Assembly: GCF_000423465.1 (NCBI RefSeq)
Contig: NZ_KE384021.1
Location: forward strand, 435,115 to 499,114
Direction: 5' to 3'
Source of the DNA: Propionicicella superfundia DSM 22317
GTDB taxonomy: Bacteria; Actinomycetota; Actinomycetes; Propionibacteriales; Propionibacteriaceae
Length of the DNA: 64,000 bases
Below, in pieces: positions 4,254 to 35,136 of the stretch; within the stretch, counting starts at the first letter, position 1; the number at the start of each line of letters is the position of its first letter. The translations under genes and the position numbers were made by a program. The notes beneath the pieces were generated by a model. The model searched no databases. It saw only the letters and a list, made by a program, of their open reading frames with translations, and had not been told where the DNA came from.

Positions 4254-4976
4254 GTGGAGGGACTGATCTTCGGCGCGATCTGCGTGGCATGGCTGATCTA
4301 CCTCGTCCCCTGGTTTCTCTCCAGCCGGGGCCAGACCCCTGTGGACATCGAGCCCGTACCGGCCGATCTGTCGCGGTCGTCCATGACGATCGTGCGGGTG
4401 GGGGAGTCACTGGCCGATGCGACGCCCGGCGAGGCCACGGTGTCCACGCCGCTGACGAGGCGCGCTGCCAAGCGCGAGGCGCGCCGCATCAAGCAGACCG
4501 CTGCGATGCAGCGCCGCCGCCTGCTGCTCGGCCTGGTCGTGATGCTCGTCGTCGTAGGCGTCCTCGCGGGTTTCGGCGTCCTGCAGTGGACGTGGCTGGT
4601 CGCGCCGGGCGTCATGCTCGTGATGTTCTTCGTCGGATCCCCGATCAGCGTGAAGGTCGTGCGCCGTCGCGCCGACCGGCTGCTCGCGAGCGTCGACGAG
4701 GACAACGACGAGGAGACCGTCGCCGTCAAGGTGGTCGAGGTGTCTCCCGAGGACGATGTCGCGAGCGTCAGCCTCGCGCCGCCGGTCGCCAAGACCGGTT
4801 CGCTGTGGGAGCCGATCCCGGTCACCGCGCCGACCTACATGTCGCAGCCCCTGGCTGCCCGCACCGTGCGGACGCTCGATCTGAGCTCGCCGCTCGCCCC
4901 GCCCCGCTACGACGTGCCTGTGCCGCAGGACGCCGAGACGGACGGTGAGGAAGGCCTCCGGTCCACCGGCGCCTGA
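4254..4976 (+). CDS. Two-part membrane protein, possible GlpR-like receptor
   Basis: The protein has about 240 residues. One N-terminal membrane segment (LIFGAICVAWLIYLVPWFL) is followed by a basic Arg/Lys-rich linker (RRAAKREARRIKQ), a hydrophobic hairpin of two segments (LLLGLVVMLVVVGVLAGFG and WLVAPGVMLVMFFVG), and a long acidic, probably disordered C-terminal tail. The topology and the WLxxLVPxF motif at the first membrane exit resemble the membrane proteins beside glp-rimJ in Corynebacterium and Mycobacterium, where GlpR anchors Glp at the division site. metY-metX separates it from rimJ here. GTG 4254 is preferred over ATG 4143, because the extra N-terminus has no plausible membrane start and a CACACT box lies 7 nt before the GTG. 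The name is inference. Confidence 0.55.
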   Translation: MEGLIFGAICVAWLIYLVPWFLSSRGQTPVDIEPVPADLSRSSMTIVRVGESLADATPGEATVSTPLTRRAAKREARRIKQTAAMQRRRLLLGLVVMLVVVGVLAGFGVLQWTWLVAPGVMLVMFFVGSPISVKVVRRRADRLLASVDEDNDEETVAVKVVEVSPEDDVASVSLAPPVAKTGSLWEPIPVTAPTYMSQPLAARTVRTLDLSSPLAPPRYDVPVPQDAETDGEEGLRSTGA

Positions 4977-25777: not shown

Positions 25778-27801
25778 CCCGTTTCCCCCTCCGGTCGGCG
25801 CTCGCGCTGGTCACGGGCGGCGAGTTCGGCGAGCATGTCGTTGTACGCGGCGAGTTCGTCCTCGCCCCCGGCGTCGATCAGCTTGTCGGCCTTCGCCGCC
25901 GCGGAGGTGTCGCTGCGGAACCACTGGGCGGCCAGCACGATCACCGCGAGGAACGCGGGGATCTCACCGGTGAACCACGTGATCTGACCGGCGATGTTCT
26001 GGTCGCTCAGCAGGTCGCCCACCCACTCGACGGAGAGCGCCCGGTAGAAGCTCTCGCCGATCAGCGAACGCGACATCATGATGCCGACGGCGAAGATCGC
26101 ATGGAACGGCATGACGCTCAGCAGCAGGGCGAACTTCACCAGGTACGGCAGCCTGCCATGCCGCTCCGGCGCCACGATCATGCTGAAGAAGGCGAACCCG
26201 GCCGCCATGAAGTGCAAGAGCATGAGCTGGTGCGCCCAGTGGTATTTCATCAGCCAGCCGAACAGCGGCGAGAAATAGACCACGAAGAGGGAACCCACGT
26301 AGACCACCCACACGACGGGAGGACTGAGGACGACGCGGACCAGGCGGTTCTCTGCGAGCCCGGCCAGCCACTGCCGGGGCCCCGGCAGGTCGTCGGGGCC
26401 GGGCTGCCGGGACGCGGCGTCCGCCAGGCCGAACGGCGCGCCGAGGACACACAGCACCGGCACCATCATGTTGATGGTCATGTGCACCAGCATGTGCCAG
26501 CTATAGACGGCGGTGGAGTACATCCACAGACCGCTCACCGCGAGGTAGAGCGTCAGTCCCCAACCGCCGACCCAGGACAACAGACGGGGCACCGGCCATC
26601 GCCCGCCTGCGCGGTGCACGCGGATCATCCCCCACACGTAGACGCCGATCGCCCCCAGCGACAGCGCGACCCACAGCAGGTTCGGACGTCCCAGCCCGGC
26701 CAGGCGCTCGACGGTCGCGGGTACGTCCACCTCGTAGCCGAGATAGTTCACCTGGATCGACTGCGCCAGGGCGAAGCGGGGTGGCGGGATGTGGGCGGCG
26801 GCGGTGAGACACGCCATCAGCCCGATGAGAGCGACGAGGTCCCGGACAACCCCCGCGACGAGCCGGTCCAGGTCGGTGGCGCGCCTGCGGGACGCCTGTC
26901 GCCAGAGCCAGTTGACCAGGAGCAGGATCGACACGACGAGGCCGGCGAGGATGGGCAGACCGGCAGGGACGACGAACAATGACGAGCCGGCCAGTTGCTG
27001 CCACGCGACGACGCCGTACCCCGCGAGCGAGATCGCCACGAGCACGCCCGCCGCGCGGTGGTACCGGCGGACGGCGGCGTCGATCGCCGGGCTGCCGGCG
27101 GCGGCAGCCGCGACGACGGCCACCGCGCCGCTGGTGAGGAGCAGCGTCGCGATCGTCGCGATCGTCGCGGCATCTGTCGCCCAGTCGTGATCGAGGCCGA
27201 CCGAGACGTTGCCGGTCGTGGCCACGAACACGCTCGCCGCGGCCCCGGCGAGCCAGCAGACGAGGAAGGCGGGGACCCGCGTCGCGCGGTAGCAGGTGAT
27301 GGCCGTGCCGGCCGCGGCGACCGCCGCGGTCAGCCAGGCCAGGGCGCTGGGTGTGGTGGTGAGGAAGGTCCACCAGGCATCAGGGCGGAACGCGGAGCCG
27401 AGCGGCGTCCCGTTCACGAACGTCGGGTTGGCGAAGGTCATCAGCACCGCCGCGACGAACCAGACCTGCGACACCCGCCCCGTCCACCGCGCCAGGCGGC
27501 GGCCGGTCTCGGTGAGACTCGTCCCGTCGCCGACCGGGGTGAACGCGAAGACGGCCGCCAGCCCGCCCAACGCGGCCGCGCCGGTGAGCCGGGCGATCAG
27601 ATCGCCCAGAACGCTCACGACGCCGGTCACATCGTCGGCGGTGGGACGTCCGGGCAGCGGTGGCAGCGCCGTCAGCAAAGTGCCGACCGCGAGTGCGGAC
27701 GCGACCGCGACGCCGGTGGCCAGCCAGAGCATCCAGGTCCCGGAGGGCGACGGGTACCTTCCCGGCGCACGCACGTCGAGTCGATGCGCCATTCGTGTCA
27801 C
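25774..27801 (-). CDS. CopD-CtaG fusion: copper-resistance / cytochrome oxidase assembly protein
   Basis: A 675-residue polytopic membrane protein. The first half has CopD-like segments (TWVFLTTTPS-type loops, WQQLAGSSLFVVPAGLP), and the second half, from about residue 390, matches CtaG/caa3 assembly factors: MYSTAVYSWHMLVHMTINMM, HWAHQLMLLHFMAAGF and MIVAPERHGRLPYLVKF. Actinobacteria often carry this fusion. It probably moves or delivers copper across the membrane, feeding oxidase maturation, with CopA exporting excess. The start at 27801 follows GCGAGAGG; an ATG three codons in is also usable. Confidence 0.85.
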   Translation of the reverse strand: MTRMAHRLDVRAPGRYPSPSGTWMLWLATGVAVASALAVGTLLTALPPLPGRPTADDVTGVVSVLGDLIARLTGAAALGGLAAVFAFTPVGDGTSLTETGRRLARWTGRVSQVWFVAAVLMTFANPTFVNGTPLGSAFRPDAWWTFLTTTPSALAWLTAAVAAAGTAITCYRATRVPAFLVCWLAGAAASVFVATTGNVSVGLDHDWATDAATIATIATLLLTSGAVAVVAAAAAGSPAIDAAVRRYHRAAGVLVAISLAGYGVVAWQQLAGSSLFVVPAGLPILAGLVVSILLLVNWLWRQASRRRATDLDRLVAGVVRDLVALIGLMACLTAAAHIPPPRFALAQSIQVNYLGYEVDVPATVERLAGLGRPNLLWVALSLGAIGVYVWGMIRVHRAGGRWPVPRLLSWVGGWGLTLYLAVSGLWMYSTAVYSWHMLVHMTINMMVPVLCVLGAPFGLADAASRQPGPDDLPGPRQWLAGLAENRLVRVVLSPPVVWVVYVGSLFVVYFSPLFGWLMKYHWAHQLMLLHFMAAGFAFFSMIVAPERHGRLPYLVKFALLLSVMPFHAIFAVGIMMSRSLIGESFYRALSVEWVGDLLSDQNIAGQITWFTGEIPAFLAVIVLAAQWFRSDTSAAAKADKLIDAGGEDELAAYNDMLAELAARDQRERRPEGETG

Positions 27802-27877
27802 CCTCTCGCCTGGCCGACCGGATCAACTGCGGCGTGAGTCTACTCACCGCAGGGCGGGTTGCCACCGCCGGCGAGGG

Positions 27878-28432
27878 TCAGGCGAGGAGCCGGGCGGCCT
27901 GCTCGCAGGCCCCGTAGACGATCTCGTACTGCTGGTCGATCAACGGCGCCGTCTGGGCGGTCTTGCGGACCTTGACCCGGCCGTGTGCCAGGTAGGCGGC
28001 GAGCCAGCCCAGCAGGCCGATCGCGCCCAGCGGGATCGACAGCAGCCACAGGCCGGCCTCGATGGCGAACACGGAGCCCGCCAGGAAGGCCGAGCCGGCG
28101 ATGCCGATGCCGAGCGCCACGCCCGTCGCCGTGGCGGTCCGGGACTTCTCGAGTGCCCGGATGCAGGCCAGGGCGTTCTCGGCCGTGCGTTGCAGTTCGT
28201 TGATCAGCGGCCGGTTCCGGACGCGGCGGTCACGCTTGAGCTTCAAGGCGACGGCGTTCACGTTGGGCACGGTGGTGGTGGCGTTCTCGACGATCCAGCC
28301 GAAGCTGCGGTAGGTGTCCTCGTACAGCGGCTCCAGATCGCGATCGGCGGTCACCGTCGCGTACTCGTAGCCGATGTAGTCGGGGTACAGCGGGAAGTCG
28401 GTCGGCCGCCCTCCGGGTGGCACCTCGGCCAT
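27878..28432 (-). CDS. Conserved two-TM protein, first of a tandem paralogous pair
   Basis: The protein has 184 residues. A soluble N-terminus reads DYIGYEYATVTADRDLEPLY, EDTYRSFGWIVE and VALKLKRDRRVRNRPLINELQR. Two membrane segments follow (GVALGIGIAGSAFLAGSVFAI, shown only in part here, and LLSIPLGAIGLLGWLAAY), then HGRVKVRKTAQTAPLIDQQYE. The downstream-strand neighbour at 28461 is about half identical throughout, so this is a recent tandem duplication. I know no named family. The pair is downstream of a promoter shared with the response-regulator regulon proposed here, which suggests an envelope function. ATG 28432 follows GGAGGCG. Confidence 0.7.
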   Translation of the reverse strand: MAEVPPGGRPTDFPLYPDYIGYEYATVTADRDLEPLYEDTYRSFGWIVENATTTVPNVNAVALKLKRDRRVRNRPLINELQRTAENALACIRALEKSRTATATGVALGIGIAGSAFLAGSVFAIEAGLWLLSIPLGAIGLLGWLAAYLAHGRVKVRKTAQTAPLIDQQYEIVYGACEQAARLLA

Positions 28433-28460
28433 GGTCTGTTCGCCTCCTGGAATCGGGGCG

Positions 28461-28985
28461 TCAGGCGGCGAGCAGCCGACCGGCCCGCTCGCCGGTCTCG
28501 TAGACCGTCTCGTACTCGCGGTCGATGAGGGGCGTGACCTGGGCGGTCTTGTTCTCCTTCACCTTGCCGTGAGCGAAGTAGCCGGCAGCCCACCCGGCCA
28601 GCCCGACGATGCCCAGCGGAATGCCGAGCACCCACAGGTTGGCGGTGATCGCGAAGACCGACCCGGCCAGGAAGGCCGATCCGACGAGGCCCAGCGTGAT
28701 GGCGGCCGCCATCGGCGCGGTCGACGTGGAGCGCTCCAGACGTGCGATCGTGGCGAGGGCGTGCTCGGCCGTGCGCTGCAGCTCCAGCACCGCGGTGCGG
28801 TTGGGGATGCGGCGGTCGCGCTTGAGCTTCAGGGTGACGGTGCTCACGTTGGGGACGCCGACGCCGTAGCCCTCGACGGTCCAGCCGAAGTTGCGGTAGG
28901 TGTCCTTGTAGAGCAGCTCGAGCTGACGGTCGGCCTGAACGGTCAGGTACTCGTAGGCGACGAAGTCGGTGGTGGTGTCTGTCAT
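28461..28985 (-). CDS. Conserved two-TM protein, second of the tandem pair (promoter-proximal)
   Basis: The protein has 174 residues: FVAYEYLTVQADRQLELLYK, DTYRNFGWTVEGYGVGVPN, VTLKLKRDRRIPNRTAVLEL, then two membrane segments and HGKVKENKTAQVTPLIDREY. Block by block it parallels the gene at 27878, which it precedes in transcription by 28 bp. ATG 28985 follows GAGGAGGACC. About 100 nt upstream sit the two palindromes (29059-29096) also found ahead of the small membrane genes and the MFS gene, so it probably belongs to the adjacent two-component regulon. The function is unknown. Confidence 0.7.
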   Translation of the reverse strand: MTDTTTDFVAYEYLTVQADRQLELLYKDTYRNFGWTVEGYGVGVPNVSTVTLKLKRDRRIPNRTAVLELQRTAEHALATIARLERSTSTAPMAAAITLGLVGSAFLAGSVFAITANLWVLGIPLGIVGLAGWAAGYFAHGKVKENKTAQVTPLIDREYETVYETGERAGRLLAA

Positions 28986-29058
28986 GGCTGGTCCTCCTCG
29001 TGCGGTGCCCCGTTGTGGGGATGATCCGATCCTGTCTGCCGGCGGCGTCGGAGGAATC

Positions 29059-29096
29059 GTCCGCGCGGACGGTCTTGGCCTACTGCGTTCGGAGTA
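29059..29096 (-). promoter_or_regulatory. Paired-palindrome regulatory site 1
   Basis: GTCCGCGCGGAC (29059-29070) and TACTGCGTTCGGAGTA (29081-29096) lie about 75-110 nt upstream of the 28985 start and 36-73 nt before the histidine kinase start. Both motifs recur in the same order at 31475-31510 and 33156-33191. Confidence 0.7.
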
Positions 29097-29131
29097 CGTC
29101 GGACCTGCGCACGGGTGGGAGCATTGAGCGC

Positions 29132-30310
29132 ATGGCGACGGCACCGGGCTCTGCGTGGACGGCGCGCGCCCCGCTGTGGGTGCGCGCCTCGCGCGTGCTC
29201 GAGATCGTCACCCTCGTCGTGATCGGGCTGGCCGTCGGGGTGGAGGCGTCGCTGGCCGTGATCGCCCGCAATCCGGCCGGACTCGTGGCGGCCGGCACGA
29301 TCGCGGCCGGCACGGTGATCGGCTACCGGTTCCAGCCGTACGTGGGGCTGGCGCTGGTGGCGGCATCTCCGCTGGTGGCGGTGTTCGTGGGGTGGCTGCC
29401 GATCCACAACTGGTCGATGGCCTGTTTCGCCGTGCTGCTGCTCACACTGCGTGGGCTGCCGGGGGTGATCGGCGGTGTGGTCACGGGGCTGGCGAGCTTC
29501 GCCGCTGTCGGCTGGCACGGCGGTGGCCTGTCCGTGAACGACAATCCGGAGGCGTGGATCGCCGTCGCGGCCGTGCTGATGTGCGCCGCGATCGGAAGCG
29601 CTATCCGGGGCCAGCGCCGATACCTGGCCGAACTGGAGCAGCGCACCCGGGACGCGATCGTCACCCGTGAGGCGGCGGTCGAGCGCAGCGTCGCCGAGGA
29701 GCGGGTCAGGATCGCCCGCGATCTGCACGACAGCGTCGGCCACAAGATCGCGGTGGTGAGCATGCACCTCGGTGCCGCGGAGGTGCACCTGCCCACCGAC
29801 GCCGCAGCGGTTGCCGTCGACCTCGCCGAGGCGCGCGCCGGAGTGCAGTCCGTCCTGCGGGAGACGCAGGAGATCCTGCGGGTGCTTCGCGTGGGCGTCG
29901 AGCCCGACAGCGTCACCCCGACTCCGGAGCACAGCCGGATCCCGGATCTCCTGGCGTCCTTCCAGACGGCGGGGCTGGAGGTCGACGCCCGGTTCACGGG
30001 ACTGGAGCGGTCGTTGGGGCAGACCACGAGCGCCGCCGCGTACAGGATCACGCAGGAGGCGCTCACCAACGCGGAGAAGCACGGCACGGGGCCGGTGTCG
30101 CTGCGTGTCGACGTCACGCCTGCGCAGGTGACGATCGAGGTGGTGAACCTGCGCGGGGCCGCCGGCGCCGGCACGTCGGGCGGCGGCAACGGGCTCGTCG
30201 GCATGCGTGAGCGGGCCGCGTCCGCCGGCGGCCGGATCGAGGTCCGGTCGGACGACAGACTGTTCTCGGTGCGTGCCTGGCTGCCCGTCGAGGAGGAGGA
30301 GAATCGATGA
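29132..30310 (+). CDS. Sensor histidine kinase, NarL-partner (HisKA_3) type
   Basis: A 392-residue kinase with about five membrane segments in the first 165 residues and little extracytoplasmic loop, so it probably senses within or at the membrane. The phosphorylation helix is RIARDLHDSVGHKIAVVSMH, with the His. The ATPase domain has QEALTNAEKHG (N box) and GGGNGLVGMRERAASAGG (G box), ending FSVRAWLPVEE. ATG 29132 follows GGTGGGAGC. It overlaps the response regulator by 4 nt (ATGA). The surrounding genes resemble envelope-stress or antibiotic-response sets, which fits an intramembrane sensor. Confidence 0.9.
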   Translation: MATAPGSAWTARAPLWVRASRVLEIVTLVVIGLAVGVEASLAVIARNPAGLVAAGTIAAGTVIGYRFQPYVGLALVAASPLVAVFVGWLPIHNWSMACFAVLLLTLRGLPGVIGGVVTGLASFAAVGWHGGGLSVNDNPEAWIAVAAVLMCAAIGSAIRGQRRYLAELEQRTRDAIVTREAAVERSVAEERVRIARDLHDSVGHKIAVVSMHLGAAEVHLPTDAAAVAVDLAEARAGVQSVLRETQEILRVLRVGVEPDSVTPTPEHSRIPDLLASFQTAGLEVDARFTGLERSLGQTTSAAAYRITQEALTNAEKHGTGPVSLRVDVTPAQVTIEVVNLRGAAGAGTSGGGNGLVGMRERAASAGGRIEVRSDDRLFSVRAWLPVEEEENR

Positions 30311-30966
30311 TCCGAGTGCTGATCGTGGACGACCAGGAGATGATCCGCACCGGGTTGCGGACCATCGTGGACGCTCACCCCGACCTGGAGGTCGTGGGGG
30401 AGACCGGGGACGCCCTGGCGGCGATCCGGGAGTTGGACGCCATGGCTCCTGACGTCGTGCTGATGGACATCCGGATGCCCGGCATCGACGGCGTGGAGGC
30501 GACGCGGCGGATCCGTCGCTCCTATCCGCCCGAGAAGCTGCGGATCCTCGTGCTGACCACGTTCGACCAGGACGAGTTCGTGCTCGCCGCGGTGCGGGCG
30601 GGGGCAGACGGGTTCTTCAGCAAGGGGGCCAGTCCGGCCGAGCTGACCGCGGGGATCGTGCGGGTCGCCGGAGGGGGCCGGGCGCTGTCGGCCACGGCCG
30701 TGGACGCTCTGGTGGACCATGTCGCCGAGGACAAGGGAGCCCCGTCCGACCCGGCGGTGGCGGCCAGGTTCGAGGCGCTCACCCCGCGAGAGCTGGAGAT
30801 CGTCCGGGCGATCGTGACCGGGCTGGACAACACCCAGATCGCCGCCGATCTGTACCTGTCCCCGCTGACGGTGAAGACGCACGCCAACCGGGCGATGATG
30901 AAGGTCGGCGCCCGGGACCGGGCGCAACTGGTGTCGTTCGCCGTGCTGGCCGGGATCCATCCCTGA
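30307..30966 (+). CDS. Response regulator, NarL/FixJ (LuxR-HTH) type
   Basis: A 219-residue regulator. The receiver has the acidic pair VDDQEM, the phospho-acceptor Asp in DVVLMDIRMPGIDGVEATRR, Thr in LTTFDQDEFV and the Lys in FFSKGASPAEL. The C-terminal LuxR helix-turn-helix is LTPRELEIVRAIVTGLDNTQ, IAADLYLSPLTVKTHANRAM. It is coupled to the kinase (ATGA). NarL-type proteins bind inverted half-sites as dimers, so the repeated palindromes at 29081, 31495 and 33176 are natural targets. Confidence 0.93.
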   Translation: MIRVLIVDDQEMIRTGLRTIVDAHPDLEVVGETGDALAAIRELDAMAPDVVLMDIRMPGIDGVEATRRIRRSYPPEKLRILVLTTFDQDEFVLAAVRAGADGFFSKGASPAELTAGIVRVAGGGRALSATAVDALVDHVAEDKGAPSDPAVAARFEALTPRELEIVRAIVTGLDNTQIAADLYLSPLTVKTHANRAMMKVGARDRAQLVSFAVLAGIHP

Positions 30967-30970
30967 TCTC

Positions 30971-31032
30971 CGCCGAACGCTCCCGAACTGCCGGAAATCC
31001 GGCCGAATCCGGCTATTTCGGAGCGCTCGCCG
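30971..31032. repeat. Intergenic palindromic element, copy 1 (possible terminator)
   Basis: Begins CGCCGAACGCTCCCGAACTG just after the response-regulator stop and folds back on CGGAGCGCTCGCCG, with mismatches. It is a diverged version of the near-perfect hairpin at 42241-42298. It is placed as a transcription terminator for the two-component operon. Confidence 0.65.
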
Positions 31033-31113
31033 CGTCGTGGGGACGTGGCCGAAGCGCGATCTGCCGCCCCGTTGACGGGACGGCCGATCACGCTGCGGTG
31101 CGGTTCGTGAAGG

Positions 31114-31212
31114 TCAGCCCTTGCGCTTGACGATGACACGTCCGATGACGATGGCGAGAATGATGACGACGACGATGATCGCGATGGTCCAGCCGATTGC
31201 GGTGGTGCTCAT
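31114..31212 (-). CDS. Small single-TM protein, 32 residues
   Basis: ATG 31212, after GGAGAAGAAA, encodes 32 residues: a short polar start, one long hydrophobic helix (IAIIVVVIILAIVIGRVIV) and a positive tail ending KRKG. It follows the 35-residue membrane gene by 76 bp on the same strand. The positive C-terminus predicts it stays cytoplasmic, with the N-terminus outside. No family is recognised. The strong ribosome-binding site, codon bias and position below a shared regulatory site support a real gene. A role as a stress-induced membrane micropeptide is inferred. Confidence 0.6.
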   Translation of the reverse strand: MSTTAIGWTIAIIVVVIILAIVIGRVIVKRKG

Positions 31213-31288
31213 TTTCTTCTCCGATCTGTATGAAACTGCGGACTGTCTTCTATGGACGATGTGATGCCCTGCGCGCCCCGGTGGACGG

Positions 31289-31396
31289 TCAGGCGGCGAA
31301 GGTCTCGGACGTCCTCTTGTGCGCCACGACGGCAACGATCGCGGCGATCACGCCGGTCGCGGCGATCGCAGAGATCACTTTCGAGCGTGTGGACAT
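31289..31396 (-). CDS. Small single-TM protein, 35 residues
   Basis: ATG 31396, behind a strong GAAAGGAG site, encodes 35 residues: MSTRSKV, one hydrophobic helix (ISAIAATGVIAAIVAVVA) and a short polar tail HKRTSETFAA. It is the first gene after regulatory site 2 (31475-31510), about 100 nt upstream, and is followed by another micro-membrane gene. I recognise no family. Small Ala/Val/Ile-rich helices of this kind often modulate sensor kinases or envelope proteins, so feedback on the nearby kinase is possible. Confidence 0.62.
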   Translation of the reverse strand: MSTRSKVISAIAATGVIAAIVAVVAHKRTSETFAA

Positions 31397-31474
31397 TGCG
31401 TTCTCCTTTCTCGTGAAGAGCGTCTGGCGACGTCCAGCACGAATAGCCTCGCAATTCGGGGTCGAGATGACGTC

Positions 31475-31510
31475 GTCCGGACGGATCGACCGAGTACCGC
31501 GTTCGCAGTA
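31475..31510 (-). promoter_or_regulatory. Paired-palindrome regulatory site 2
   Basis: GTCCGGAC (31475-31482, followed by GGAT) and TACCGCGTTCGCAGTA (31495-31510) lie 79-114 nt upstream of the 35-residue membrane gene. Order, orientation and spacing are as in sites 1 and 3. Confidence 0.7.
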
Positions 31511-31617
31511 ACGCGATGTACTTCGCGTGCAGGTTCGCCGAGCGCGTGCGTCGTTGCGCCCAGGAGATGGTGATTTCGCGGGTGCGGTCTCTTCACCGAC
31601 GGGTCCCCGGAGTCGTC

Positions 31618-33066
31618 TCAGCCGCGGCCGGTGAGGACCGGTTCGGTCGTGACGGGCGGCGGGGTCCCGGCGCTCCGGGAGCGCCGCGGAAGGGCGATGG
31701 CGAGAATGGCGGCCCCGAGGCCCGCTCCCGCACTGATCAGCATCACCAGATGCAGCCCCCCGAGTGAGGGCACCGTGTACCCGGCGACGCTGGAGCTGAG
31801 CCCGGCGAGCAGACTGCCGATGACGGCGCCCGCGGTGCTCGTGCCGATGGCGCGGGCCAAGGTGTTCACGCCGTTCGCCGACGCGGTCTCGCGGGGCGGG
31901 ACGGCGTCCATGATGACCAGCGGGATGGCGGCGTAGGCCATGCCGAGGCCGGCATTGCACGCCACGACGACCGCGAGGATCCCCCAGGTGGTCGCCATCA
32001 GGGGGACGGCGGACGCGAACCCGGTCGCGCTCACGACGGCTCCGAGCACGATCGTCACCTTCGGTCCGTAGCGGGCCGACAGACGCGCGGACCGGGGGGC
32101 GACGGCCAGCATGGCGAGCCCGCCGGGCGCGAGCCACAACGCCATCGCGACCATCGACTGGCCGAGCCCGTAGCCCGTGGCGGCGGGGAGTTGCAGGATC
32201 TGCGGGACGACATAGGACAGGGCATAGGTGCTGAAGGAGATCAGCAGAGATGCGATGTTGGTGAGTGCGATGCGCCGGTCCGCGAGACCACGCACGTTGA
32301 TCAGTGGCTGATCGGTGCGCACCTGGCGGATGCTGAACAGGGCGAGCGCCAGGAAGGCCAGCCACAGCAACCCGAGCGTCAGGCTGGACGTCCAGCCCCA
32401 CTCGGCTCCTCGGGAGATCCCCAGGAGCAGGCACACCAGACCGAAGGAGAGCCACCCGGCGCCCAGGCCGTCGAAGCGGGCGGTGCGCTGCGGCGGGAGC
32501 CCGGCGGGCACGCAACGCCAGACGAGCACGAGGGCCGTCAGAGCGAGCCCGGCGAAGGTCCAGAACATCACCCGCCAGGAGGTCGTCTGCCCGACGACCG
32601 CCGCGAACGGAAGCCCCAGCGCCCCGCCGATGCCCATCGACGCGCTCATCGTCGCGACCGCCGAGCCGACCCGCTCGGCGGGGACGATCTCGCGCAGCAG
32701 GCTGATCCCGAGCGGGACGACGCCCATGCCGAGCCCCTGGAGGCTGCGTCCGAGGATCATGGGCAGCAGGGACGACGAGAGTGCGCAGACCACGGTGCCG
32801 GCGATCAGCGGCAGCAGGCTCGCCATCAGGACGGGGCGCTTGCCCCAGATGTCGCCGAGCCGGCCGGCGAGCGGGACGGCCACGGCGGCGGCGAGCAGGG
32901 TGGCCGTGATCACCCAGGAGGTGTCGGCGGGCGTGGCTCCCAGAATGCTCGGCAGTTGGCCGATGAGCGGTACGACAAGGGTTTGGATACCCGTCGCGAT
33001 CACTCCGGTGAGCGCGAGGATCGCGACGATCACGCCCGGGTGGGCCGCGAGTCTGCTGTCGGTCAT
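31618..33066 (-). CDS. MFS exporter, DHA2 family
   Basis: A 482-residue multidrug-type transporter with 14 likely membrane segments. Motifs are DTSWVITATLLAAAVAVPLA, LAGRLGDIWGKRPVLMA (motif A) and the motif C-like SASMGIGGALGLPFAAVVG. ATG 33066 follows GAAAGGACGTC. Its upstream region has the same paired palindromes as the other two leftward units, so I infer it is induced by the two-component system and exports the compound, or damage product, that the kinase detects. A GTG-started membrane gene diverges at 33281. Confidence 0.88.
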   Translation of the reverse strand: MTDSRLAAHPGVIVAILALTGVIATGIQTLVVPLIGQLPSILGATPADTSWVITATLLAAAVAVPLAGRLGDIWGKRPVLMASLLPLIAGTVVCALSSSLLPMILGRSLQGLGMGVVPLGISLLREIVPAERVGSAVATMSASMGIGGALGLPFAAVVGQTTSWRVMFWTFAGLALTALVLVWRCVPAGLPPQRTARFDGLGAGWLSFGLVCLLLGISRGAEWGWTSSLTLGLLWLAFLALALFSIRQVRTDQPLINVRGLADRRIALTNIASLLISFSTYALSYVVPQILQLPAATGYGLGQSMVAMALWLAPGGLAMLAVAPRSARLSARYGPKVTIVLGAVVSATGFASAVPLMATTWGILAVVVACNAGLGMAYAAIPLVIMDAVPPRETASANGVNTLARAIGTSTAGAVIGSLLAGLSSSVAGYTVPSLGGLHLVMLISAGAGLGAAILAIALPRRSRSAGTPPPVTTEPVLTGRG

Positions 33067-33155
33067 GACGTCCTTTCGACTGTGGATGGGCGGTGCAGAC
33101 ACCGTCGGCTGCCCCTGCCTTGTGGATCCTCGTCGGTGAGGGCCGGCGGTGAATC

Positions 33156-33191
33156 GTCCGGGCGGACCGTCCGTGTACGGCGTTCGCAGTA
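33156..33191 (-). promoter_or_regulatory. Paired-palindrome regulatory site 3
   Basis: GTCCGGGCGGAC (33156-33167) and TACGGCGTTCGCAGTA (33176-33191) lie 90-125 nt upstream of the MFS start. A further perfect palindrome, CGAACCGGTTCG (33195-33206), adjoins it on the side of the divergent gene. Confidence 0.7.
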
Positions 33192-33280
33192 GGTCGAACC
33201 GGTTCGCACGGACGATTCGGAGCGCGTCGTCGCCCGGAAGACTGCCGGTGTCGACACACACCAGGCGGAGGAGGGCCACC

Positions 33281-34276
33281 GTGTCCCAGGCGATCCGAAC
33301 CGTGAGCGAGCAGGAACTGTCGCCGGAACGCGCGCGGGTCGGGGTCGCACCCGTCCCGCACACCGTGCCCCGGGTCACCCGCAGACTCGGCGTGGACTGG
33401 CGAGACCTGCGTGAGCGCAGCGTGTTCTTCGCGATGTGGTCGATCGGTGGCAGCGTGGCCATGGCGGCCTGGAAGATCGGCGCCGCGGTACTCGTCGGCG
33501 GATCCCTGTTCTGGCTGAGCAACGCCGCGTTCAGCGTCGGGATTGCGGTTGCCAAGTCCCTCGCGGTCGTCGCCCATCGGCAGGGACGCACCGGGAAGGT
33601 CCGCGGCCCGGCGAACCGGGTGCGCGCGCAGCACCGCATCTACCGGACGGCCGGCGCCGCCGTGTGCGTGCTGGCCGCGCTGTACGTCGTGAGCTGCCTG
33701 ACGATGGTCTTCGGCGGCGGCGCATCCGAGAGCTACGACACCTACAGCGGGATCGCCATCGCCACCCTCACCTTCACCGAGCTCGGGATGGCCATCGCCG
33801 GAGTGGTCTCGGCGCGGCGGAACTCCGACGTCGTCGTCGAGGTCATCAAACTGGCCAACCTCGCCGGGGCGCTGATCCTCCTGGCACTGACCCAGACGGC
33901 CCTGATGTCGTTCAGTTCCGAGGACGGCGCACCGGCTCACCTCACGGGGGTGGCGGGTGTCTTCTTCGGCTCAGGGGCCTGTGTCATCGGCGTGTACATG
34001 CTGGTCCGGCCGCTGCCCTGCACGGTCGGCGAGGTGAGCGCCGCGCGGGGCGGCATCCGCCGGCGGAACCGGGGCGGCGTCCGCGGGAGGATCGCGGATC
34101 GGGTTCGCGGACGTGGTGTCGGCCTGGCTGCGCTCGGCGGATCGCGGGACTCCCGCGGAGCCCTCGGCCGCGTGTTCCGGCCCGATCCGGGGCTGCCGGC
34201 CCCGGAGCTCACCCCACCGCGATGCCGAGGGCGGCGGCGATCGCCGGAGCGAGATCGAGGAGCTGGTCCGGCGTGA
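33281..34276 (+). CDS. Hypothetical membrane protein with basic tail
   Basis: The protein has about 331 residues. After a 45-residue soluble start come six hydrophobic segments (for example FFAMWSIGGSVAMAAWKIGA and ALILLALTQTALMSF), then an Arg/Gly/Pro-rich C-terminus of about 90 residues that looks disordered. I know no family. GTG 33281 follows GGAGGAGGG; an ATG at 33149 would run across regulatory site 3 and is less likely. Its last 68 nt overlap the convergent pentapeptide-repeat gene, so the true tail may be shorter or the overlap real. It is divergent from the MFS exporter and may share its control. Confidence 0.55.
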   Translation: MSQAIRTVSEQELSPERARVGVAPVPHTVPRVTRRLGVDWRDLRERSVFFAMWSIGGSVAMAAWKIGAAVLVGGSLFWLSNAAFSVGIAVAKSLAVVAHRQGRTGKVRGPANRVRAQHRIYRTAGAAVCVLAALYVVSCLTMVFGGGASESYDTYSGIAIATLTFTELGMAIAGVVSARRNSDVVVEVIKLANLAGALILLALTQTALMSFSSEDGAPAHLTGVAGVFFGSGACVIGVYMLVRPLPCTVGEVSAARGGIRRRNRGGVRGRIADRVRGRGVGLAALGGSRDSRGALGRVFRPDPGLPAPELTPPRCRGRRRSPERDRGAGPA

Positions 34277-34883
34277 TGGTCGCACCGCGGAGCCCGGCGG
34301 GCTCTGCGATATCGGCCAGTCGTGCCCCTCGCAGGTCGACGTCGGCGAGCGAGGAGCCGGTGACGTCGAGGCGCGCGATCCGGCAGCCGGCGAAGGACAC
34401 ACGGGTCGCCGTCGACCGCAGAAGATCGAGCTCGTCGATGACGCAGTCGGTGAATGCGACGTCGGTCAACGCGGAGTCGCGCAGGTTGACGTAGCCCAGC
34501 CGACAACCGGTGAGCCGCACGGATCGCCAGGACGCCCCGTAGAGTTCCGCCGACCCGATGCGGCTGCCCCGGATCTCGACGCCGCGCCACTCGGACTCCG
34601 CAGCGGCGAGCGACAGCACGTCGACACCGTCGAGGATCGAGTCGGTGAGCACGGCGCTCCGCGCCGCCCAGCCCTCGGCGCGCAGACGGGTCAGCCGCGA
34701 GGAGTCCAGATGCCGGCGATGATCCCAGACGAGCGCGTCCAGCGACGCACCGTCAGCCTCCACCGACTCGAGATCGGTGTCCCCGTGTCGGAGGGCATCG
34801 ACGTCCACCGCCGCGAGCGCGCCGAGACGGATCGGGCGCAGGCGGGGTGGGCGGGGACCATCGTGCGGCGTGCGTACGACCAT
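34209..34883 (-). CDS. Pentapeptide-repeat protein
   Basis: A 224-residue protein. Through the middle and C-terminal part it follows the A(D/N)LxX five-residue rhythm: VLTDSILDGVDVLSLAAAES, GSAELYGASWRSVRLTGCRL, VNLRDSALTDVAFTDCVIDE, LDVTGSSLADVDLRGARLAD. Such right-handed beta-helices include DNA mimics that protect gyrase from quinolones, and many of unknown role. ATG 34883 is chosen because TAGTGT lies 7 nt upstream on the minus strand (leaderless). It converges with, and overlaps, the membrane gene at 33281. Confidence 0.85.
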   Translation of the reverse strand: MVVRTPHDGPRPPRLRPIRLGALAAVDVDALRHGDTDLESVEADGASLDALVWDHRRHLDSSRLTRLRAEGWAARSAVLTDSILDGVDVLSLAAAESEWRGVEIRGSRIGSAELYGASWRSVRLTGCRLGYVNLRDSALTDVAFTDCVIDELDLLRSTATRVSFAGCRIARLDVTGSSLADVDLRGARLADIAEPAGLRGATITPDQLLDLAPAIAAALGIAVG

Positions 34884-35136
34884 GACGATGACACTAGCGA
34901 CGGGCTCCGACACGAACTCCGCTGCCTGGCTCTGCGCCGTTCGCGGGGCTCGCCCTCGTGGCGCGCAGGAGCGTCTGCGCTCCTCTCGGCCACCGCCTCA
35001 TGTCCCCGCGCGAGCGTCCCTACCGGCGAGACGTCGGGGTGTCCGGTTGTGCGGTGAGGCTATCCTTAGCGCGGCACCACACGAGGTCGCCGCGTCTCGG
35101 GGGGAACGCGGCGGCCGTGCCAGGCCCGGCGCAGGC

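Follow-up and report, generated by a model that had tools for sequence, protein, structure and literature searches.

Paired palindromes as candidate operators of a NarL-type two-component system in Propionicicella superfundia DSM 22317

In a 64,000-nucleotide stretch of the 3.62-Mb genome of Propionicicella superfundia DSM 22317 (hereafter, the window; G+C content 70%), the genes of a sensor histidine kinase and a NarL/LuxR-type response regulator lie in a cluster with three sites, A, B, and C, at which a primary palindrome is accompanied by a secondary palindromic box (Table 1). The cluster is composed of DUFa and DUFb (leftward), the kinase and the regulator (rightward), the micro-protein genes m1 and m2 (leftward), the gene of a major facilitator superfamily (MFS) exporter (leftward), and the membrane protein gene TMr (rightward). 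Judging from the sequence, it is very likely that the paired palindromes are operator sites of this regulator, arranged in a strong/weak promoter layout, and the regulator very probably controls its own operon, the exporter, and several small membrane proteins. A two-component regulon with a NarL-type regulator had been proposed in an earlier note on this DNA; the proposal is supported by the genome-wide rarity of the primary motif and by the presence of an upstream site in 15 of 29 kinase loci.

Palindromes and promoter geometry

The primary site is a 7-2-7 inverted repeat of the form TACTGCG-NN-CGCAGTA in A, B, and C as well as in relatives, and each of the three window copies departs from this symmetry at one pair. 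The three copies fit the published LiaR motif T(X)4C(X)4G(X)4A, and their inverted heptamers agree with the earlier suggestion of a dimer site for a protein with a LuxR-type helix-turn-helix (HTH), which would presumably bind there. Exact matches to TACNNCGAACGCNGTA were found three times in the whole genome, all of them inside the 4.1-kb cluster, against approximately 0.05 expected from base composition and none for the reversed control. When up to two mismatches were allowed, 21 forward and 29 reverse matches were obtained, which was near the control (18 and 24, respectively); consequently, the signal resides in the exact cluster only. Random scatter over the genome, named beforehand as an outcome that would speak against the regulon, was thus not observed for the exact motif.

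The palindrome pair does occur three times, with the secondary box located to the left of the primary one in each pair and with the centres spaced by 24 (A), 22 (B), and 22 bp (C), so that the previously described order and 22–24-bp phase were confirmed; the distance from the secondary box to the start codon is 71, 76, and 87 nt, respectively. Both motif types described earlier are present, but a reading as a strong and a weak version of one site is preferable to that of two separate motifs. The GTCCG-NN-CGGAC form ascribed to the second type holds in general but not for copy B, GTCCGGAC, which lacks the two-base gap, although it is still readable in the 7-2-7 register with the right arm CGGACGA. 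Similarly, the pairs are located upstream of leftward genes, but not exclusively, since A also faces the kinase (35 nt from its start), and C has a right secondary box, absent from the earlier note, which faces the rightward gene. An exact copy of GTCCGNNCGGAC was also found inside the kinase gene (30242–30253), with no partner palindrome and likely by chance; therefore, the second motif has no significance unless accompanied by the first.

The promoter geometry on the kinase side was assessed in 12 kinase-facing flanks, chosen for a clear site near the start codon (loci L072 and L104, with weak sites, were omitted). A hexamer xAxxxT (A at position 2 and T at position 6) was found exactly 22 nt from the palindrome in 11 of the 12 flanks, no other offset within 15–34 exceeding 3 of 12, and an ATG or GTG codon followed 33–35 nt past the palindrome, also in 11 of 12. 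This position of the hexamer places the palindrome centre at approximately −42 and the transcript start within 1–2 bases of the start codon. The predicted starts point to a promoter class in which one strong site near −42 is combined with an almost leaderless transcript. The left-side flank at 11392 of L092, located beside a DUF site of genome G051, was not counted, as it faces no kinase and lacks the hexamer; it resembles a degenerated second copy of the kinase promoter with the first codons.

For the effector side, training of a nine-base box was limited to the four window flanks (strong match, score of at least 6), and the box was then tested on 60 flanks of sites in 20 other loci, in which the rows are not fully independent because L094 and L095 are sister loci. 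Strong matches were revealed in 32 of the 60 flanks, with the best match at offset 14–18 in 19 of these 32 (exactly 17 in 14 of the 19), while 6000 random places gave 970 strong matches, of which 85 fell at offset 14–18. The hexamer located 30 nt from the box centre, with the offset set by the box alone, carried A at position 2 in 36 and T at position 6 in 34 of 42 gene-facing flanks, which had been picked by their downstream gene (4 from the window, 2 from a paralogous system of the same genome, and 36 from other genomes). This distance is equal to that on the kinase side (8 + 22 nt), and thus the secondary box sits where the strong site sits on the kinase promoter. Effector promoters, their starts likewise predicted, would form a class combining a strong site at approximately −64 to −66 with a weak site at approximately −42, and the second palindrome is most readily interpreted as an additional, weaker version of the regulator's site, placed at a fixed promoter position. 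In L094 (527–568) and L095 (7231–7272), two primary palindromes 26 bp apart were found between divergent genes, each with an outward secondary box, which is a denser operator than that of the window.

Occurrence in relatives and extent of the putative regulon

A protein search revealed the kinase at an E-value of 1e-30 or better in 23 of 197 genomes of the family; the best match in the named genome collection was that of a Propionicimonas metagenome-assembled genome (76% identical, contig G156:C86). The analysis of upstream regions included 29 kinase loci, namely, 28 from this search (some of them paralogues within one genome, and with the window's own locus included) and L059 of Antribacter soli from outside the family. 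At least 11 of 14 consensus positions were matched within 250 nt upstream in 15 of the 29 loci (the window's own among them), and in 10 of the 15 loci (window included) whose kinases were at least 40% identical; the value for random 280-nt stretches was 6%, inflated by the sites that the fetched loci themselves contain. Absence from relatives keeping the two-component system had also been named as an outcome against the regulon; by this strict count, approximately half of the relatives' kinase loci keep the site. In A. soli, TCCCGCGCCCGCAGTA is located 36 bp upstream of the kinase, and a site precedes the gene of an MMPL-like exporter.

Palindromes of the TACTSCGNNCGSAGTA form, counted from a listing of 198 genomes (197 having been searched for the kinase), were present in 9 of the 23 kinase-positive genomes and in three others: G035, in which a NarL-type system lies between the two copies, and G172 and G173, in whose fetched regions no such system was seen. 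Similar palindromes also flank paralogous NarL-type systems in G000, G035, and G051. The second NarL-type pair of the P. superfundia genome (L113, G000:C16:1-12000) is flanked on both sides by the perfect palindrome TACCGCG-NN-CGCGGTA (2529–2544 and 4485–4500), with an MFS gene on one side and an ATP-binding cassette (ABC) transporter on the other; G051 is arranged likewise, except that one of its palindromes is imperfect (L118). The palindrome TACTCCG-NN-CGGAGTA just upstream of the same gene in two related genomes with no such kinase nearby (L111, 7699, and L112, 7608) is either the site of another factor or a chance occurrence.

The third DUF copy of the P. superfundia genome lies elsewhere, behind a similar tandem site. 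The composite pattern TCGTCYGN{15,17}TACN10GTA, written after this remote copy had been seen and so as to include it, gave five matches in the genome (A, B, C-left, C-right, and C1:619511) and none in the reversed control. The genes faced by the site at C1:619511 encode a 29-aa micro-protein resembling m1 and the third DUF copy, and an ABC transporter lies on its other side. In L137 (4453–5365 and 5706–7459), two imperfect palindromes with secondary boxes are located between the remote micro-protein/third DUF copy and the divergent ABC transporter. Thus, of the local regulon claimed earlier, the clustering of three units with the kinase and regulator stands, but the regulon is not strictly local, as a fourth tandem site is found elsewhere in the genome.

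Over the 197 genomes, the composite pattern was matched in 22; 8 of the 23 kinase-positive genomes hold 21 matches, and the single matches in each of 14 of the 174 kinase-negative genomes look like background. Six matches were found in G051, including those at a DUF pair, an m2 unit, a further DUF locus, a dehydrogenase-like pair, and an MFS/TMr double site (L139). The last is bidirectional and lies on a contig other than that of the kinase, between homologues of the window's MFS exporter (an orthologue, 70% identical) and TMr (51% identical); a further TMr homologue was found in L093 (35%). The retention of the site with a relocated target is the strongest single argument for the putative regulon. 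The two short-chain-dehydrogenase-like genes of G051, located behind a full tandem site (L117, 5438–7421), suggest that the regulon reaches metabolism in some relatives. Genes behind such sites in relatives include those of MMPL-like and ABC-type exporters and of DUF4342-like and dehydrogenase-like proteins; these labels, as well as those of the A. soli exporter, the remote ABC transporter, and the L117 genes, were assigned from the sequence and not by family search. The DUF family (15 aligned members) was detected in 10 of the 197 genomes, 9 of them kinase-positive; in the tenth, G180, the DUF gene is adjoined by a site, and a kinase-type promoter is present just before the contig end. Among 296 genomes sampled from the class, DUFb was found only in the window's own.

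Candidate binder and alternative explanations

The regulator is the natural candidate binder because the site tracks the kinase–regulator pair and paralogous NarL-type systems are flanked by similar palindromes. The window pair has the features of a NarL/FixJ (LuxR-HTH) regulator with a HisKA_3 partner kinase: Response_reg (94.8 bits) and GerE (58.8 bits) in the regulator and HisKA_3 (57.3 bits) in the kinase were above their cut-offs, and HATPase_c (24.6 bits) was just below its cut-off of 26.4. According to published descriptions, NarL dimers prefer inverted heptamers with a 2-bp separation (PMC4549865); the sites of LiaR follow T(X)4C(X)4G(X)4A, and phosphorylation enables binding to a weaker secondary one (PMC7191749); and VraR binds a conserved site R1 at −50 to −75 and, in the phosphorylated form, also a less conserved site R2 at −46 to −26 (PMC6612188).

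The sequence, positions, spacing, conservation, and genome-wide rarity of the sites were observed directly; we infer binding of the regulator, cooperativity, activation rather than repression, the transcription starts, and the stimulus as follows. A phosphorylated regulator dimer would bind the strong 7-2-7 palindrome TACTGCG-NN-CGCAGTA. On the kinase–regulator promoter, the single strong site at approximately −42, a class II activator position, would provide autoactivation of the operon, with the transcript starting within a few bases of the start codon. On effector promoters, the strong site at approximately −64 to −66 would be occupied by one dimer, and a second would be recruited cooperatively to the weaker TCGTCCG-type copy at approximately −42, where it could contact RNA polymerase. 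The amount of phosphorylated regulator required would therefore be higher for effector genes than for the autoregulatory promoter. The effectors would be membrane proteins, namely, the DUF pair, the two micro-proteins, the MFS exporter with the divergent multi-span protein, and the remote micro-protein with the third DUF copy, and their likeliest role would be membrane defence against a toxic compound or envelope damage. The best guess for the stimulus is membrane or toxic-compound stress.

Several observations weigh against such a regulon. A site with at least 11 matches is missing upstream of the kinase in 14 of the 29 loci, where some sites are degenerate or located before the preceding gene and others are absent, and the close sisters L094 and L095 are not independent. 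With up to two mismatches, TACTGCGNNCGCAGTA was rarer than its reversed control in the 23 kinase-bearing genomes (10 versus 24 in the own genome), a half-degenerate palindrome pattern was near its control across the family, and the looser palindrome patterns as a whole, not exceeding their reversed controls, carry no weight. The recognition helix N[RH].M.K is common to loci with and without detected sites (e.g., L104); the distant homologues L060 and L061, with the helix AAAQ.K, had no site above 9 in a weight-matrix scan, but this contrast is weak support because L104 and other loci with no detected site share N[RH].M.K. Genomes G172 and G173 carry a palindrome of this form, with no such kinase in the regions fetched. 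The palindromy of the secondary box over the 42 flanks is moderate (mean of 3.0 of 7 pairs versus 1.9 at random and 2.7 with the left arm slid by one base), and in flanks with no given offset, the offset was picked by the match to CGGACGAT, which favours the box columns. In many relatives, only the right arm of this box is clear, beside a possible −35 region.

The last observations bear on an unlikely, though serious, alternative, namely, that the GTCCG-NN-CGGAC box is a promoter element with its right arm, CGGACGATTC, reaching the −35 region and that its palindromy in the window is incidental. The right arm is indeed better conserved (G in 42 and A in 39 of 42 flanks at its end), but in the left arm, T, C, and G are retained at positions 4, 6, and 7 of the half-site in 29, 37, and 28 of the 42 flanks, respectively, matching TACTGCG. 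In addition, 5–6 of 7 bases are paired in A, C-left, and the DUF sites of L091 and L092 (4 of 7 in B and C-right), and no such box was seen in the kinase-facing flanks, where the strong site holds the same place.

Binding of the palindromes by a different factor, such as a TetR- or MarR-type repressor with a gene elsewhere, with the two-component system being only one of its targets, is improbable. The kinase–regulator pair is a recurring neighbour of the site across genera, and paralogous NarL-type systems have similar sites of their own, whereas a palindrome alone does not identify its binder, and G172 and G173 would suit such a factor. Both the 7-2-7 geometry and the fit to T(X)4C(X)4G(X)4A are as in the sites of NarL/LiaR-type proteins (PMC4549865 and PMC7191749). 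The reading of the sites as repressor operators, through which the regulator would switch the genes off, is equally doubtful, since the box nearest the promoter is centred at approximately −42, upstream of the predicted −10 hexamer. A centre at approximately −42 is a usual activator position. What favours repression is that NarL represses as well as activates (PMC4549865). The reading of the palindromes as a promoter of an alternative extracytoplasmic function (ECF) sigma factor (GAAC ... CGTC) was rejected as scarcely credible: GAAC-N15/17-CGTCC is readable by eye in copies A and B, but the copies differ in spacing, the central bases are variable among relatives, and there is a separate −10-like hexamer at a fixed position downstream.

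Known regulators, target proteins, and significance

The VraSR system of Staphylococcus aureus is similar in having a NarL-family regulator and a conserved outer and a less conserved inner site by the promoter (PMC6612188). However, the tandem layout of the vraSR promoter is found here on the effector promoters, the kinase promoter having one strong site only, at approximately −42; the kinase, with approximately five hydrophobic segments, and the regulon genes also differ. LiaFSR of Bacillus subtilis and relatives is similar in the T(X)4C(X)4G(X)4A fit and in the combination of a primary and a weaker secondary site, whereas the half-site here is TACTGCG and the published LiaR sequence is ATAcGACtcccgGTCtTAT (PMC7191749). 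No match to the LiaF/VraT-type family was found among the nine neighbouring proteins scanned, and the window kinase, with approximately five hydrophobic segments instead of two, gave no Pfam match to HAMP at E 0.1. LiaFSR and VraSR systems have a LiaF/VraT-type gene in the operon and a two-segment kinase with a HAMP domain, and they are induced by cell-wall antibiotics. Consequently, by the features tested, the system is not a LiaFSR member; it is a separate NarL-family system that, by analogy, would work like VraR and LiaR.

An engineered 7-2-7 site of Escherichia coli NarL, TACCCCTAAAGGGGTA, shares the TAC...GTA ends (PMC4549865), but the heptamer core differs, and none of the targets seen was a gene of nitrate respiration. 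In NCBIfam, the regulator was matched best by MadR and MctR (132.8 and 136.6 bits versus a curated cut-off of 300), and by that threshold it belongs to neither; a literature search for MadR/MadRS, which did not extend to MctR, gave no relevant description among the entries listed. A term search of a paper on AbrB1/B2 of Streptomyces (PMC7581861) revealed no site sequence for comparison. A description of this regulon was not found among the papers listed in the literature searches, in which VraR, LiaR, and NarL were the precedents.

The window members of the DUF family, DUFa and DUFb, had no Pfam, NCBIfam, or PADLOC match, and the PADLOC defence families likewise gave none for the MFS exporter or TMr (the query in the family and PADLOC searches for TMr being its first 306 residues). 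The predicted fold of DUFb is a small beta-alpha domain followed by two long helices, of fair confidence (predicted local distance difference test score, 81; predicted template modelling score, 0.60); its model had no match in the PDB at E 0.001 or better, and DUFb had none on plasmids at E 0.001. No Rfam elements were found at the gathering threshold in 27500–35000.

Table 1. Genes, palindromic sites, and predicted promoter hexamers of the cluster (window coordinates)
Feature	Position	Strand	Description
DUFa	27878–28432	−	DUFb paralogue; adjoins DUFb, same direction
DUFb	28461–28985	−	174-aa membrane protein, no family match
Sensor histidine kinase	29132–30310	+	HisKA_3; about five hydrophobic N-terminal segments (hydropathy)
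Response regulator	30307–30966	+	NarL/LuxR-type; Response_reg + GerE
m1	31114–31212	−	32-aa single-span membrane micro-protein
m2	31289–31396	−	35-aa single-span membrane micro-protein; homologue behind same tandem site in L092
MFS exporter	31618–33066	−	DHA2/EmrB-like by profile, below family cut-off
TMr	33281–34276	+	Multi-span membrane protein, no family match
Site A, primary	29081–29096		7-2-7 palindrome TACTGCGTTCGGAGTA; DUFb to its left, kinase to its right; position kept in many orthologous loci
Site A, secondary	29057–29072		TCGTCCG-CG-CGGACGG
Site B, primary	31495–31510		Palindrome TACCGCGTTCGCAGTA
Site B, secondary	31473–31488		TCGTCCG-GA-CGGATCG
Site C, primary	33176–33191		Palindrome TACGGCGTTCGCAGTA; between divergent genes
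Site C, left secondary	33154–33169		MFS-facing
Site C, right secondary	33200–33215		CGGTTCGCACGGACGA; faces rightward gene
−10, DUFb–DUFa (predicted)	29029–29034	−	CAGGAT; 30 nt from secondary-box centre
−10, kinase (predicted)	29119–29124	+	GAGCAT; 22 nt after primary; start codon 7 nt on (nearly leaderless)
−10, micro-protein unit (predicted)	31445–31450	−	GAGGCT
−10, MFS (predicted)	33126–33131	−	GAGGAT
−10, TMr (predicted)	33238–33243	+	AAGACT

Export combined with small membrane proteins would fit a role in shielding the membrane from a toxic compound. On balance, the system is probably an undescribed actinobacterial stress regulon with a two-tier promoter code (a strong site at −42 for the sensor operon, and a strong site at approximately −65 with a weak one at −42 for the effectors), which would be readable across genera from the sequence alone, even after gene relocation, and would control the DUF family and micro-proteins that may form one membrane-protection machine. 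The two-site layout itself is already known from cell-wall stress regulators such as VraR. With such a promoter layout, prediction of the targets of one regulator would be possible in several genera, and a testable stress circuit would be assigned to a membrane-protein family and to micro-proteins, all of them lacking a usable annotation.

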